The notes below the pieces were generated by a model. It was given only the letters and a program-made list of their open reading frames with translations, made no database searches and had not been told where the DNA came from. A DNA stretch of 64,000 bases from the NCBI GenBank assembly GCA_026129685.1, contig JAHCHO010000002.1, positions 62,001-126,000 on the forward strand, read 5' to 3'. The stretch comes from Fimbriimonadaceae bacterium. GTDB taxonomy: Bacteria > Armatimonadota > Fimbriimonadia > Fimbriimonadales > Fimbriimonadaceae. The position numbers and the translations under genes were made by a program. Shown here one piece after another: positions 4 to 28,889 of the stretch. Numbering within the stretch: the stretch's first letter is position 1; each line of letters opens with the position of its first letter.

Positions 4-943
4 GTTTCCGGCGTGTGCCGGGGGCTATGGATTGAAACGCGAGGATGATGTTGGTCTCGACGTTTGGATCCCAAGTTTCCGGCGTGTGCCGGGGGCTATG
101 GATTGAAACTGAGTGGTCGGCGCCACCGCTTGCGCGGTTTGGTTGCAGCGTTTCCGGCGTGTGCCGGGGGCTATGGATTGAAACGTGGGCTGTCCCCCCG
201 CCATTTCGATGAGAAACGTTTCCGGCGTGTGCCGGGGGCTATGGATTGAAACAGAGGGTAATCGTCCCCTGGTCGGGGTTGATCAGTTTCCGGCGTGTGC
301 CGGGGGCTATGGATTGAAACGGGAGTCTTGTCAGACTCAGTCGCCGCCCTCAAGTTTCCGGCGTGTGCCGGGGGCTATGGATTGAAACCTTTGGTGGCAC
401 CATTTGTGGAGCCCACCCTGGAAAGTTTCCGGCGTGTGCCGGGGGCTATGGATTGAAACCCTCCGAACCCAATTCCGCCATACGAGGCGACACAGTTTCC
501 GGCGTGTGCCGGGGGCTATGGATTGAAACTCACTCTCCACTCTGCAAAGCCATCAGCAGGCGGCGAGGTTTCCGGCGTGTGCCGGGGGCTATGGATTGAA
601 ACAGTCGTGGTACTAGCGGTTGCCGAGTGGGTTTCGTTTCCGGCGTGTGCCGGGGGCTATGGATTGAAACTTGAGTCTATTTATCGGATGATAATTAACG
701 CCAAGTTTCCGGCGTGTGCCGGGGGCTATGGATTGAAACGCGAAGAGAATCCCGCACCAGAGCCGAGAAGGGTTTCCGGCGTGTGCCGGGGGCTATGGAT
801 TGAAACCCGCTTTGCGACGACCACCGCCGCGCCGAAAAAGTTTCCGGCGTGTGCCGGGGGCTATGGATTGAAACATTTGCTTGCCGCCCAGTTCTCGAAA
901 GTGTGGCAGTTTCCGGCGTGTGCCGGGGGCTATGGATTGAAAC
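4..943 (+). CRISPR. CRISPR array, 14 repeats visible, 5' part outside window
   Basis: Fourteen identical 35-bp repeats start at 4, 75, 150, 218, 286, 354, 425, 495, 568, 636, 705, 772, 840 and 909. They begin GTTTCCGG and end GGATTGAAAC, and the bases on either side are not conserved, which fixes the repeat length. The 13 complete spacers are 32-40 bp and all different. ATTGAAAC at the repeat's 3' end is the usual 8-nt crRNA handle of type I and III systems, so transcription runs left to right and the leader lies outside the window. Each repeat has a short internal hairpin (CCGGC, loop GTGT, GCCGG) and GTTTC/GAAAC ends. No cas gene is in the window, so the subtype cannot be set. Even the last repeat is undegenerate, which suggests the array once continued past 943. 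Confidence 0.98.
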
Positions 944-971: not shown

Positions 972-2293
972 GGTTGTGTCCCAAGACGTGGTGTAGGAGC
1001 GCCTTCCGTCGAGTCGCATGATATCACCATCCGGCGGCTCGGGCCAAGAGGGCGTCGTGTTGGGTGCTGGGCAGTCCCAGACTGTGCCGAGCCGTCTGTC
1101 TGCGGGTCACCTGCCACTCGTCGTGCTGTTCCATCAGGATCGCCCCCACCAGACGCACGACGCTGTTCTCGTTGGGGAAGATCTGGACGACGTCCGCGCG
1201 TCGCTTCACCTCCCGATTGAGCCTCTCCAGACCGTTGGTCGAGGCGAGGACGGGCCAGAGCTCCCGAGGGTGGCTCCGATGGGCCAGAACGTCGTCCTTG
1301 GCCTCGCGGACCAGGCGCGCGACCTCGGGAAACGGGTTCTCGAGCATCGTGGCGACCTCGTCCCAACTCGCGCTCGTGTCCTCGGGCGTGGTCTGGGCCA
1401 TCGCGGTGCGCACGAAGCTCGCCACCAACTCCTTTCGACCCTGGGGCACCCGCGCCAGGACGTTTCGCATGAAGTGGACCCGGCACCGTTGCCACTGACA
1501 GCCCGCGCACCGCTGGATGGCCTTGACCAGGCCGGCGTGCGAGTCGCTCGTCGCCAGACGGACGCCCCGAAGACCCCGGTCCAGAAGCGAGCGAAGGAAC
1601 TCCGTCCAGAAGCTCTCGGTCTCCGCGTGGCCCAGCCGCATCCCCAGGACCTCGCGACGACCCTCCTCGTTCAGCCCGACGGCCATCACCGCCGCCTTGG
1701 AGACGATCCGAGAGCCCTCGCGAACCTTCACGTAGGTGGCGTCGAGCCACACGTAGGGGAAGACCCCCTCCAAGGGTCGGTCGAGGAACTCGCGAACGCG
1801 AACCTCCACCTCCGCGCACAGGCGCGACACCTCGCTCTTGGAGACTCCCGAGCCGCCAAGGGCCTTCACCAGGTCGTCCACCGCGCGGGTCGAGACCCCT
1901 TGGAGGTACGCCTCCTGGATCACGCTCACGAGCGCCTTCTCAACCGTGCGCCTGGGCTCCAGGAAGCTCGGAAAGTAGCTGCCCCGACGCAACTTGGGGA
2001 TCCGAAGGGGAAGGTCCCCGACCCGGGAGCGGAGCGTCCGCTCCCGGTACCCGTTGCGGGAGACGAGCCGATCCTCGCTCCGTTCGCCGTGCCCGGCGCC
2101 CGTGAGCGATCGCACTTCCAGTTCCATCAACTCGGTCAGCGCCTCGAGAACCACGTCTCGCAGACGATCCTTGAACTCCGCGCCCTCGAAGAGGGCTATG
2201 CTTTCGTTTGCCATTCTCGTTCTCCGTTGTCTTCTCATCAAAGCAAGGGGACGGAATGGCGCTCCCTCGTACACCAACACTTGGGACACAGCC
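972..2293 (-). mobile_element. IS256-family insertion sequence (about 1.32 kb)
   Basis: A single transposase gene is flanked by imperfect terminal inverted repeats. The outer ends are GGTTGTGTCCCAAG at 972-985 and, on the other strand, GGCTGTGTCCCAAG at 2280-2293 (13 of 14 identical). Similarity continues inward through a shared TGGTGTA. Size, one-gene layout and ends fit the IS256 (mutator-type) family. I could not see an 8-9 bp target duplication: the flanks before 972 and after 2293 differ. The left end lies 28 bp beyond the last CRISPR repeat, so the element may sit inside a former spacer. Confidence 0.85.
1024..2214 (-). CDS. IS256-family (mutator-type) transposase
   Basis: A 396-residue DDE transposase that would catalyse movement of the surrounding insertion sequence. 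The length is normal for the family and the frame is open throughout. Visible family marks are the first catalytic Asp in WLDATYVKVR (about residue 153), the second in TSDSHAGL (about 225), the CRVHFMRNV motif that follows it, and the catalytic Glu in TNGLERLNRE (about 330). The start is set at MANES; an upstream in-frame ATG at 2238 would add eight residues. The gene nearly fills the element between the inverted repeats. Nothing suggests inactivation, so the element could be mobile. Confidence 0.95.
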   Translation of the reverse strand: MANESIALFEGAEFKDRLRDVVLEALTELMELEVRSLTGAGHGERSEDRLVSRNGYRERTLRSRVGDLPLRIPKLRRGSYFPSFLEPRRTVEKALVSVIQEAYLQGVSTRAVDDLVKALGGSGVSKSEVSRLCAEVEVRVREFLDRPLEGVFPYVWLDATYVKVREGSRIVSKAAVMAVGLNEEGRREVLGMRLGHAETESFWTEFLRSLLDRGLRGVRLATSDSHAGLVKAIQRCAGCQWQRCRVHFMRNVLARVPQGRKELVASFVRTAMAQTTPEDTSASWDEVATMLENPFPEVARLVREAKDDVLAHRSHPRELWPVLASTNGLERLNREVKRRADVVQIFPNENSVVRLVGAILMEQHDEWQVTRRQTARHSLGLPSTQHDALLARAAGW

Positions 2294-25764: not shown

Positions 25765-25957
25765 CGAGTCACTTGTTGGCCCTTCCCCGCGAACCTATCC
25801 CGGCGAGCTTGCGAGGTGAGGCCCAACTCCCGCTTGTTTGCGGGCCGGTCGCCTTGCCGGGTCCCAAACCCGCGAATCGTTCGGATTGCCGCCCTTGTTG
25901 AAGAAGGATCGGTCCGTCTTTACGACGCCCGCATCGCCGCGCTTCCATAATGGCCCG

Positions 25958-27919
25958 GTGGCAATCGCATCGTCCCTACTGGATCGGCTCGCCCAGGGCG
26001 TGATGGTCTTCGACGGGGCCATGGGCACCCAGATCCAAGCCGCCGACCTGCACGATCGGGACTTCGTCCTCGACCCGGACGGCGACTACCCGCCCGCCGT
26101 TCGCGAGGCCGCGAGGCGCCTGAACGGCAATCTCCTGGACGGCTGCAACGAGATTCTGTGCTTCACGCGCCCCGACGCCATCCGGACGATCCACGAGCAC
26201 TACCTCGAGGCCGGTTCGGACATGGTCCAGGCCAACACGTTCGGCGCGTCCGGCATCGTGCTCGCCGAGTACGAGATCGCGGAACTGGACTACGAGATCG
26301 GCCTCGCCGCCGGCCGCATCGCCCGCGAGGCCGCCGACCGGCACTGTTCCGACGACAAGCCCCGGTTCGTCGTCGGCGCGATGGGTCCCGGAACCAAGCT
26401 CGTCAGCCTCGGCCAGACGACGTGGGACGAGTTGGAGGGCACCTATCGCCGTTGCTTCCGTGGGCTGCTGGAGGCGGGGGTGGACGCCCTCATGCTCGAG
26501 ACCCTCCAGGACCTCCTGATGGTCAAGGCCGCGTTGCGCGGCGCGCGCCTCGCGATGGACGACGCCGGCCGCGACGTGCCCGTGTTCGTGCAGGTCACGA
26601 TGGAGCAAACGGGCACGATGCTGGTCGGCTCGGAACTCGGCGCGGCGCTCAACACGATCGAGGCGTTTCCCTGGGTCCAGGTCATCGGGATCAACTGCGC
26701 GACCGGCCCGGTCGAGATGGCCACCCACGTCCGCTTTTTGGGAGACCATTCGACCCGCCCGATCTCGATCCAGCCGAACGCCGGACTGCCGATCATGGAA
26801 GGCGGTCGGGCCGTCTACAAACTGAGTCCGGAGGAGATGGTCGTCCACCAGACCCGCTTCGTCGAGGACCATGGCGTGGCCATCGTCGGCGGATGCTGCG
26901 GCACCACCCCCGCCCATATCCGCGCCCTCGCCGACGCGCTGGGCGGCCGACCGCACGGCAACGCGGCCCATTGGCAGCGGGTGCGCGAGGTGTACCCCGG
27001 CTTCGACTTTTCCATGGGGAGCCCGGAGCGCGAGTCGGGCCTTCGGCTCCAGGGCTGCAGTTCCCTCTACCAGTTCGTCCCCTACAAGCAGGACAGCAGC
27101 TTCCTCATCGTCGGCGAGAAGACCAACGCCAACGGAAGCAAGGCGTTCCGCGACATGCTCGGCGCGGAGAACTGGGACGGGCTCGTGGAGCTCGCCCGCG
27201 AACTCGAAGGCGAGGGTTCGCACATGCTGGACGTCTGCACCGCCTACGTCGGTCGCGACGAGGTCCGCGACATGACCACCCTCCTGGGCCACTACAACCG
27301 CCAGGTCACCGTTCCGATCATGATCGACTCGACGGAGGCGCCCGTGATCGAGGCCGCTCTGCGCAAGATCGGCGGCAAGCCCCTGATCAACTCGATCAAC
27401 TTCGAGGACGGCGAAACCCGAACCCGCCGCGTGCTCGGCCTTTGCCGCGACTACGGGGCGGGAGTGGTGGCCCTCACCATCGACGAGAGCGGCATGGCGA
27501 AGACCACCGAGCACAAGGTCGCGGTGGCCGACCGGCTGCTCGCCGCCACTCGCGAGTTCGGTCTGGCCGATCACGACGTGTTCATCGACTGCCTGACCTT
27601 CACCCTCGGCTCGGGCGACGAGGAGTTCCGCAGGTCGGCGATCGCGACGATCGAGGCGATTCGCGAGACCCGGGCGCGACACCCCCGCGTGAACTTCACG
27701 CTCGGCGTGAGCAACGTCAGCTTCGGCCTGAAACCGGCCGCGCGCCAGGTCCTGAACTCGGCGTTCCTCCACTACTGCCTCGAGGCGGGCCTGACGAGCG
27801 CGATCGTCCACTTCAGCAAGATTCGCCCGGAGAACCGAATCGAGCCCGAGATCTGGCAGATCGCCTCCGACCTCGTGTTCGATCGCCGACGTTACAAGTT
27901 AGTGGGATCGGCTGCTTAG
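25958..27919 (+). CDS. metH: Methionine synthase, homocysteine and folate domains only
   Basis: A 653-residue protein corresponding to the N-terminal half of cobalamin-dependent methionine synthase. The homocysteine domain (about 1-340) has [11 protein letters not shown] and the zinc-ligand cysteines in GINCATG and [10 protein letters not shown]. The pterin-binding domain (about 355-640) has [32 protein letters not shown] and [12 protein letters not shown]. The protein stops right after DLVFDRRRY, where the cobalamin cap and B12 domains would begin; no B12 or AdoMet domain follows. The GTG start at 25958 is chosen because a CATAAT box lies 6 nt upstream, suggesting a leaderless message. It could be one half of a split enzyme or a truncated remnant. 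Confidence 0.85.
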
Positions 27920-28677
27920 TCGCACTCGGCGTACCAGGTCCTGCTCCATGAGGTTGGGTGAGCTTCGCCCGAACGCTTGCCCTCCGGGTTGACCCGGGTC
28001 GCGTCGAATGCTCCCGGCGACGTGATGGTCTTGGCATGACCGTCGAAGAAGATCATCGAACCTCCCCGTGAGCCCCAGCGCCGATAGTAGTTGTAGGGCG
28101 GTTCGCAGTCGTAGCCATAGCGCTGGCACCCGACGTCGACCGAGCGGTCGAAGAACGGAAACATCTCGAGGCGCATGACCCGCGTTTCCGAGGGGAACTC
28201 GACCCCGCCGTCCGTCACGATTCGCGTGAAGTCGTACGGCACGTTGTTGCCGCTGGACTCGCCCGCGATCATCGAGTACATGCACTGGGTAAACCGATAA
28301 GAGCTACCATAGGCTTCCCAATAGGTCTGCGCGCCGGGCACGTCTTGGCTCGTGTAGGGCCCGCCCGCATCCAGCGGACTCCGGAACAATTCTCGGCTCT
28401 TGGCGTATGGCATCAGTTCCACCTCGACGCCCTTGTGGCCGGCTTGCCACGCCGGGGGCTGAGAGTTGTACGCGTAGAAGATCGGCATCGTGTCGTCGTG
28501 GTCCGACACGTACATCCGGAGGGCGAGACCGATCTGCCGGGCGTTCGAAAGGCAGGCGGTCGCCTTCCCCGCCTCCTTTGCTTGGGCGAAGACCGGGAAC
28601 AGAATCGCGGCGAGGATCGCGACGATCGCGATAACGACGAGAAGCTCGATGAGCGTGAAGGCGCGTTGCTTGGTCAT
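27916..28677 (-). CDS. Pseudopilin-like protein (prepilin N-terminus, DUF1559 type)
   Basis: A 253-residue protein with a type III prepilin signal: a short charged leader, then [19 protein letters not shown], cut before the Phe by prepilin peptidase. The continuation [19 protein letters not shown] is the hallmark of the large pseudopilin-like family of Armatimonadota. [12 protein letters not shown] box near the end fits the family's C-terminal signature. The function of these proteins is unknown; they are probably secretion-system or surface structural proteins. Remarkably, a TPP riboswitch lies 84 bp upstream on the same strand. The stop codon overlaps that of the convergent metH fragment. 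Confidence 0.9.
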
Positions 28678-28694
28678 GGTACGTCCCCCAGAAC

Positions 28695-28739
28695 CTCCAC
28701 GGGCCGCCTTCGCTTCGATTGCGAGGGCGGCCCGTGGAG
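28695..28739 (-). other. Long perfect stem-loop between TPP riboswitch and pseudopilin gene
   Basis: A 14-bp perfect stem (CTCCACGGGCCGCC with its complement) with a 17-nt loop lies between the riboswitch and the ribosome site (GGGGGA) of the pseudopilin gene. No U-run follows in the transcription direction, so it is not a standard intrinsic terminator. It may be part of the riboswitch expression platform, an RNA-processing or stability element, or a fossil of a rearrangement. Confidence 0.6.
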
Positions 28740-28760
28740 TCTTCTTCGAGGACCGTGCCT

Positions 28761-28853
28761 CCGCAATTCCTACGCCGGTCCTAACCGGATCAGGTTCCTA
28801 GGGTAACTCCGCTCTTCTGCGGAGACTCTCAGCCGTGACGGCTCCCCCTGCGG
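28761..28853 (-). ncRNA. TPP riboswitch (THI element)
   Basis: On the minus strand the thiamine pyrophosphate aptamer is clear: GGGGGAGCC and GGCTGAGAG in the first arm, a variable stem TCTCCGC/GCGGAG, then ACCCTAGGAACCTGATCCGG and GGACCGGCG in the pyrophosphate-sensing arm. It is closed by a P1 helix CCGCA/TGCGG. All conserved core elements are present, so it should bind TPP. The next gene downstream is the pseudopilin-like gene, not a thiamine synthesis or transport gene, and none of those is in the window. Confidence 0.95.
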
Positions 28854-28889
28854 GCAACGCGTGGACGCTATGCGGTTGTCGAACTTATT

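Follow-up and report, generated by a model that had tools for sequence, protein, structure and literature searches.

TPP riboswitches are known as regulators of thiamine synthesis and transport, and they are usually of the OFF type, in which a high level of TPP represses. A cobalamin riboswitch is likewise known upstream of the gene of the TonB receptor btuB, an arrangement in which a vitamin-sensing RNA precedes the gene of an outer-surface protein. For thiamine, such an arrangement has been described in Bacteroides thetaiotaomicron, where a TPP aptamer lies before the gene of the thiamine-acquisition surface protein OMthi (BT2390), a putative TonB-dependent outer-membrane thiamine transporter, and pnuT-tnr3 are found in a further TPP-riboswitch operon (excerpts of PMC5613172). 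According to the same excerpts, the transcripts of the TPP-riboswitch transport operons of this organism did not change significantly with thiamine (PMC5613172), implying that the presence of an aptamer alone is no proof of a response. The same aptamer class is also found before thiC in a sister family (f3, 10 loci) of the same phylum and order as the genome described here.

The locus under study is located in a stretch of 64,000 nucleotides (the window; G000:C11:62001-126000) from the genome of a Fimbriimonadaceae bacterium of the phylum Armatimonadota. It comprises the following features:

28749-28858, minus strand: TPP riboswitch aptamer (RF00059), complete and with a canonical core (cmscan 66.9 bits, gathering cut-off 54.3)
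28695-28739, minus strand: putative expression-platform hairpin, with an outer stem of 14 bp and an inner stem of 4 bp
28684-28689, minus strand: probable ribosome-binding site GGGGGA, a weak Shine-Dalgarno match
27916-28677, minus strand: prepilin-type gene encoding a protein of 253 residues (PF07963, 36.3 bits; AlphaFold2 model; 73-row alignment)

The match to RF00059 extends over the full length of the model (positions 1-105), which bears out the first-pass annotation in describing the aptamer as complete. It is the sole TPP aptamer found in the source genome (3.94 Mb, 99% complete), and 72 nucleotides separate its last base from the pilin start codon at position 28677 on the minus strand. 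By analogy with its class, this aptamer would be expected to bind TPP and to repress the gene that follows.

This gene, the next one on the same strand, had been annotated as encoding a prepilin-type, DUF1559-like protein, and this description holds. At its N terminus the protein carries a class III signal and a methylation motif, representing the single prepilin motif in the entire 64-kb window, and its scores are above the cut-offs for both N_methyl (PF07963; cut-off 21.2) and TIGR02532 (32.1 bits, cut-off 16.3). With 21.6 bits it stays just below the cut-off of DUF1559 (PF07596; 23.3), so that "DUF1559-like" is correct and "DUF1559" is not. No TonB plug or barrel domain could be identified in the protein, N_methyl and the sub-threshold DUF1559 being the only Pfam domains. 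In its AlphaFold2 model (mean pLDDT 95.2) a long N-terminal helix leads into a globular head (about residues 60-253), in which Cys, Arg, Trp and Asp residues are conserved (73-row alignment). Sequence matches in the PDB are mostly limited to the N-terminal pilin helix, and a Foldseek search with the model had no hit with an E-value of 0.001 or lower. The structural neighbours found with VIA-align are mainly type IV pilins, the best of 177 aligned chains being PilA4 of Thermus thermophilus (6xxd; Z 5.2, rmsd 3.8, 122 residues), which also matches the window pilin in sequence across the N-terminal helix. PilA4 is much shorter, however (125 residues versus 253), and the low Z value indicates roughly a pilin-like arrangement only. 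PilA4 is also the best neighbour of the cobalamin-linked pilin described below (Z 5.6), and as these values are low, nothing beyond pilin-like can be said for either protein; the fold searches recognize a pilin and no binding site. The profiles of GspG, GspH and GspJ all score far under their cut-offs on the window pilin. Pseudopilins of type II secretion have the same N-terminal domain, and the protein could conceivably be part of a secretion machine exporting enzymes that free bound or phosphorylated thiamine. We regard this as improbable, since the solved GspG chain has 134 residues, far fewer than the pilin, and since neither a downstream partner conserved across the family nor a co-regulated secreted enzyme was seen.

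The first-pass annotation had put forward two explanations, i.e. a surface protein under thiamine control, or a riboswitch orphaned when a thiamine gene was replaced, and it had proposed a comparison of the locus in related genomes. RF00059 is present in 78 of the 85 genomes and 29 of the 32 genera of the Fimbriimonadaceae, and in 77 of 81 cases the aptamer is followed by the same pilin gene, starting within 400 nucleotides downstream (tblastn with the window pilin). The aptamer-linked pilins of the other family genomes are 52-79% identical to that of the window. In 74 of the 77 pilin-linked loci the likely start codon is found 43-99 nucleotides past the aptamer, and the CTGAGA core is kept in 76 of the 77 aptamers. 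For background, random points were taken in the same family loci with the aptamer-pilin sites left out, and a prepilin motif was encountered within 400 nucleotides downstream in 0.4% of these trials. At the level of sequence, this comparison demonstrates that the riboswitch-pilin pairing is conserved, and it strongly supports the first of the two explanations, in which the protein would be located at the surface and would respond to TPP.

The exceptions are second aptamers in three genomes (G001, G034 and G031), and a contig in G074 that ends 151 nucleotides after the aptamer. The second aptamer of G031 (G031:C29:51556-51665) scores below threshold with 53.6 bits, and the pilin-linked aptamer follows 3.5 kb downstream of it; what comes after the sub-threshold aptamer may be the remains of a decayed pilin gene. 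The extra aptamers of G034:C9 (L105) and G001:C18 (L109) are found before genes for proteins of 580 and 231 residues, respectively, the latter without a Pfam match.

Searching the window by tblastn with ThiC, ThiE, ThiG and two Thi4-like sequences, these five proteins from other loci being the only queries, gave no match at E 0.001, in agreement with the earlier statement that the window contains no thiamine gene. A hidden thiamine operon downstream of the pilin was considered and rejected, as the next gene in the window is a convergent metH, the end of which is overlapped by the pilin stop codon by a few bases, and as no neighbour is conserved in the family. The MetH-like protein itself (25838-27919, plus strand; 693 residues) has the homocysteine and pterin modules only, covering positions 2-612 of the 1182 of TIGR02082, and may be either a truncated MetH or one part of a split one.

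For eight of the nine neighbour proteins in the window, no genome but the window's own was found to have a counterpart near the aptamer. The ninth, metH, had been taken to make a rearrangement plausible, but this is not supported, as it occurs near the aptamer in two genomes only, that of the window and G073. In the family as a whole, a survey of mechanically called ORFs in loci of up to 13 kb yielded no ORF family in more than 10 genera, the most widespread being another pilin. Since the flanking genes are not conserved, the riboswitch-pilin pair appears to be kept as a unit. A riboswitch that is merely the relic of a lost or replaced thiamine gene would be compatible with the lack of a ThiC match anywhere in the source genome, and with the presence of thiC after the aptamer in sister family f3. 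The pair nevertheless persists in the family, and in other families as well, while its neighbours change. In addition, 11 of the 19 consensus pairs of the aptamer are changed on both sides (74 related aptamer sequences, in which the changes are not independent events), and the aptamer is followed by a structured platform. Both the relic and the rearrangement were rejected on these grounds, and we consider the former extremely improbable.

The platform of the window folds with -43.9 kcal/mol (z -6.5 versus 100 shuffles). For the 77 leaders, taken from aptamer to start codon, the mean fold z is -3.6 versus dinucleotide shuffles, with 84% of the leaders below -2. In its inner part the window hairpin carries CGCAAT, a 6-nucleotide complement to the 3' strand of P1 in the aptamer, and exact complements of at least 6 nucleotides to this strand, of the kind an antiterminator-like switch would need, are found in 25 of the 77 leaders versus 10.9 expected. 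The energy of the aptamer-platform duplex is no stronger than in shuffles (mean z -0.6; 77 loci), and no clear U-run follows the hairpin in the window. At least four T in the eight nucleotides past the last folded pair were found in only 8 of the 77 leaders, a count that in some leaders skipped T-rich stretches that were themselves folded. We propose that at high cellular TPP the aptamer would close P1, the downstream hairpin would form and pilin expression would be off, be it through transcription or translation, and that at low TPP the freed 3' strand of P1 would base-pair with the platform, allowing synthesis of the pilin.

Throughout the Armatimonadota, RF00059 was identified in 224 of 291 genomes. 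Sixty aptamers were sampled outside the window's family, 19 from the same order and 41 from beyond it, and these precede a pilin gene (26), ThiC (18), Thi4/ThiE/ThiG-like genes (15) or the gene of a membrane-like protein (1); the ThiC neighbours were assigned by coordinates and the Thi4/ThiE/ThiG-like ones by eye, with one Thi4 and one ThiE confirmed by Pfam. Two of these 26 pilin loci, in G214 and G257, are weak (41-44% over 127-128 residues), and their pilins are not among the matches of a pilin-head HMM at E 1e-20. This HMM has matches in 136 of the 291 genomes and 67 of 156 genera, one of them in the head region of a pilin at G007:C1:4102523-4103128, and comparison of the two result tables shows a TPP aptamer in every one of the 136. 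Outside the family, and among the matches listed, 44 of 66 pilin matches lie directly after a listed aptamer and 6 do not; the remaining 16 belong to genomes whose aptamers are not among the positions listed. In the pilin tree (midpoint rooting), the members of families f10, f12, f13 and f19 cluster, and those of f1, f2 and f31 do not separate cleanly. The membrane-like protein mentioned above (227 residues; G177:C33, L208, 1768-2448) is encoded after a TPP aptamer in a genome with neither ThiC nor a pilin match, and is possibly a thiamine transporter.

ThiC was found in 121 of the 291 genomes (one match being below the curated cut-off). Only 7 genomes have both pilin and ThiC, 129 have the pilin only, 114 ThiC only and 41 neither; Fisher tests of this near exclusion give 3e-36 for all genomes and 3e-19 when the window's family is excluded, both values ignoring kinship. 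In one of the 7 genomes with both genes ThiC is a fragment of 59 positions. In G129, which also has both, there are separate aptamers, one before the pilin and the other before a thiE-like gene, with ThiC encoded on that same strand. When counted per family, with a few genomes absent from the tables assigned by handle order, 7 families have the pilin without ThiC, 28 ThiC without the pilin, 5 both and 5 neither. Within the window's family, G059 has a full ThiC and is without aptamer and pilin. The arrangement that the first-pass annotation had named as speaking against regulation of the pilin, thiC after the aptamer and no pilin gene, does indeed occur in other families (e.g. the 10 loci of f3), where it reflects the near exclusion of the two genes and is not a refutation of the pairing. 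The 41 genomes without either gene show that ThiC is also lost without the pilin being present, and the pilin is therefore not the sole answer to loss of ThiC.

Thiamine pyrophosphokinase (TPK) is encoded in the window's genome outside the window (G000:C11:272813-273094), and it is found in 76 of the 85 family genomes. With TPK present and ThiC not found, the organism should need imported thiamine, the gene set being that of an auxotroph. No transporter was recognized beside TPK in seven TPK neighbourhoods, the ORF lists of which were read by eye. In Fimbriimonas ginsengisoli, the enzymes of thiamine synthesis are described as completely absent with only TPK kept, and 79 pseudopilin genes are reported (excerpts of PMC4072686). 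A TonB plug (PF07715) had no match in the window's genome, and at least one is found in 21 of the 85 family genomes. In the phylum as a whole, it was counted by hand in 50 of the 136 genomes with the pilin versus 78 of the 155 without, indicating that the pilin does not simply stand in for TonB receptors genome by genome.

If pilins take part in vitamin acquisition, B12 riboswitches might likewise control pilins, and cobalamin aptamers (RF00174) were inspected for this reason. They are present in 62 of the 85 family genomes. A prepilin motif was found within 300 nucleotides downstream in 28 of the 30 family loci fetched and was absent in 2; in 30 loci from the best-scoring matches in the phylum, it was found within 400 nucleotides in 19 and was absent in 11. 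The window's genome has such a cobalamin aptamer-pilin pair (G000:C14:311175-311310), with a pilin of 254-260 residues depending on the start codon; this is the second vitamin riboswitch-pilin pair of this genome (L348, G000:C14, 5311-6311). The cobalamin-linked pilins form a different subfamily from the TPP-linked pilins, and comparison of the head profiles reveals a scaffold common to both (probability 94, E 1e-7, 111 columns, 30% identity). The AlphaFold2 model of the cobalamin-linked pilin (mean pLDDT 92.2) shows the same architecture, with a globular head behind a long N-terminal helix. One of three cobalamin-linked pilins scanned passes the DUF1559 cut-off (26.9). FMN riboswitches (RF00050) were found in none of the 85 family genomes.

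Two further loci of the family are worth describing. In G069:C70 (L301), a TPP-pilin unit (828-939, minus strand) and a cobalamin-pilin unit (999-1137, plus strand) are located back to back. In G049:C41 (L286), one of the two family cobalamin loci that have no prepilin motif, the riboswitch precedes a TonB receptor gene; this genome has seven TonB plug matches, which is atypical for the family, and the arrangement is due either to contamination or to a real difference.

Pilins commonly act in attachment, and a TPP-controlled pilin could serve adhesion, with starved cells attaching to vitamin producers, particles or biofilm without any binding of the vitamin. Attachment has in fact been suggested for the pili of F. 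ginsengisoli (excerpts of PMC4072686). However, the existence of separate TPP- and cobalamin-linked subfamilies and the conservation of the head, which is 48-80% identical to that of the window in a 42-row alignment covering much of the family, are in better agreement with a fixed small ligand than with a variable surface, and we find a purely adhesive role rather unlikely.

We consider it likely that aptamer and pilin constitute one regulatory unit, i.e. a vitamin-repressed pilin on the cell surface that helps an auxotroph to acquire thiamine, as the distribution of ThiC, the auxotroph-like gene set and the parallel with cobalamin together suggest. The pilin would be processed by the prepilin peptidase, which is encoded in the same genome (PF01478, 51.4 bits, cut-off 26.5; G000:C6:36493-36843), and would be placed on the cell surface. 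Its conserved head would help the thiamine-auxotrophic cell to acquire thiamine, which the pyrophosphokinase would convert to TPP. A sister class of pilins would be under the control of cobalamin riboswitches, and the pilins would hold the place that TonB receptors have elsewhere. In relatives without the key synthesis gene, the pilin probably assists in vitamin scavenging in the same way. More tentatively, the vitamin-specific pilins could themselves be surface receptors that bind thiamine or cobalamin and deliver it via pilus dynamics, doing the work of TonB receptors; this remains a speculative extension, which we hold to be possible and somewhat doubtful.

Text searches of the open-licence PMC literature, which combined the more recent name Armatimonadota with thiamine and pili alone and in which papers were judged by title and opening of the abstract, found no earlier report. 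Conserved as the target of TPP riboswitches in one family, the pilin is also often found in this position in other parts of the phylum, and 129 of the 136 genomes having it are without ThiC. The link to a riboswitch offers a testable function for pilin families that have none; one planctomycete, for instance, is reported to have 68 DUF1559 paralogues of unknown function (excerpts of PMC10632474). The cobalamin parallel suggests a principle, with riboswitch-controlled nutrient pilins where TonB receptors are few or none. If the pilins were indeed receptors, they would add a new route to those by which vitamins are taken up and would give type IV pilin-like proteins a new function, hinting that the large pilin sets of the Armatimonadota are nutrient receptors.

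Compared with the known systems, the present locus shares with OMthi the position of a TPP aptamer before the gene of a presumed surface protein for thiamine acquisition, but this protein is of the prepilin type, and no TonB plug was found in the genome. The TPP riboswitch-thiC units of the sister family control synthesis and not a surface protein, and ThiC and the pilin are seldom found in one genome. An arrangement like that of btuB is seen in the family in G049, whereas in 28 of the 30 family cobalamin loci a prepilin gene takes the place of the receptor.
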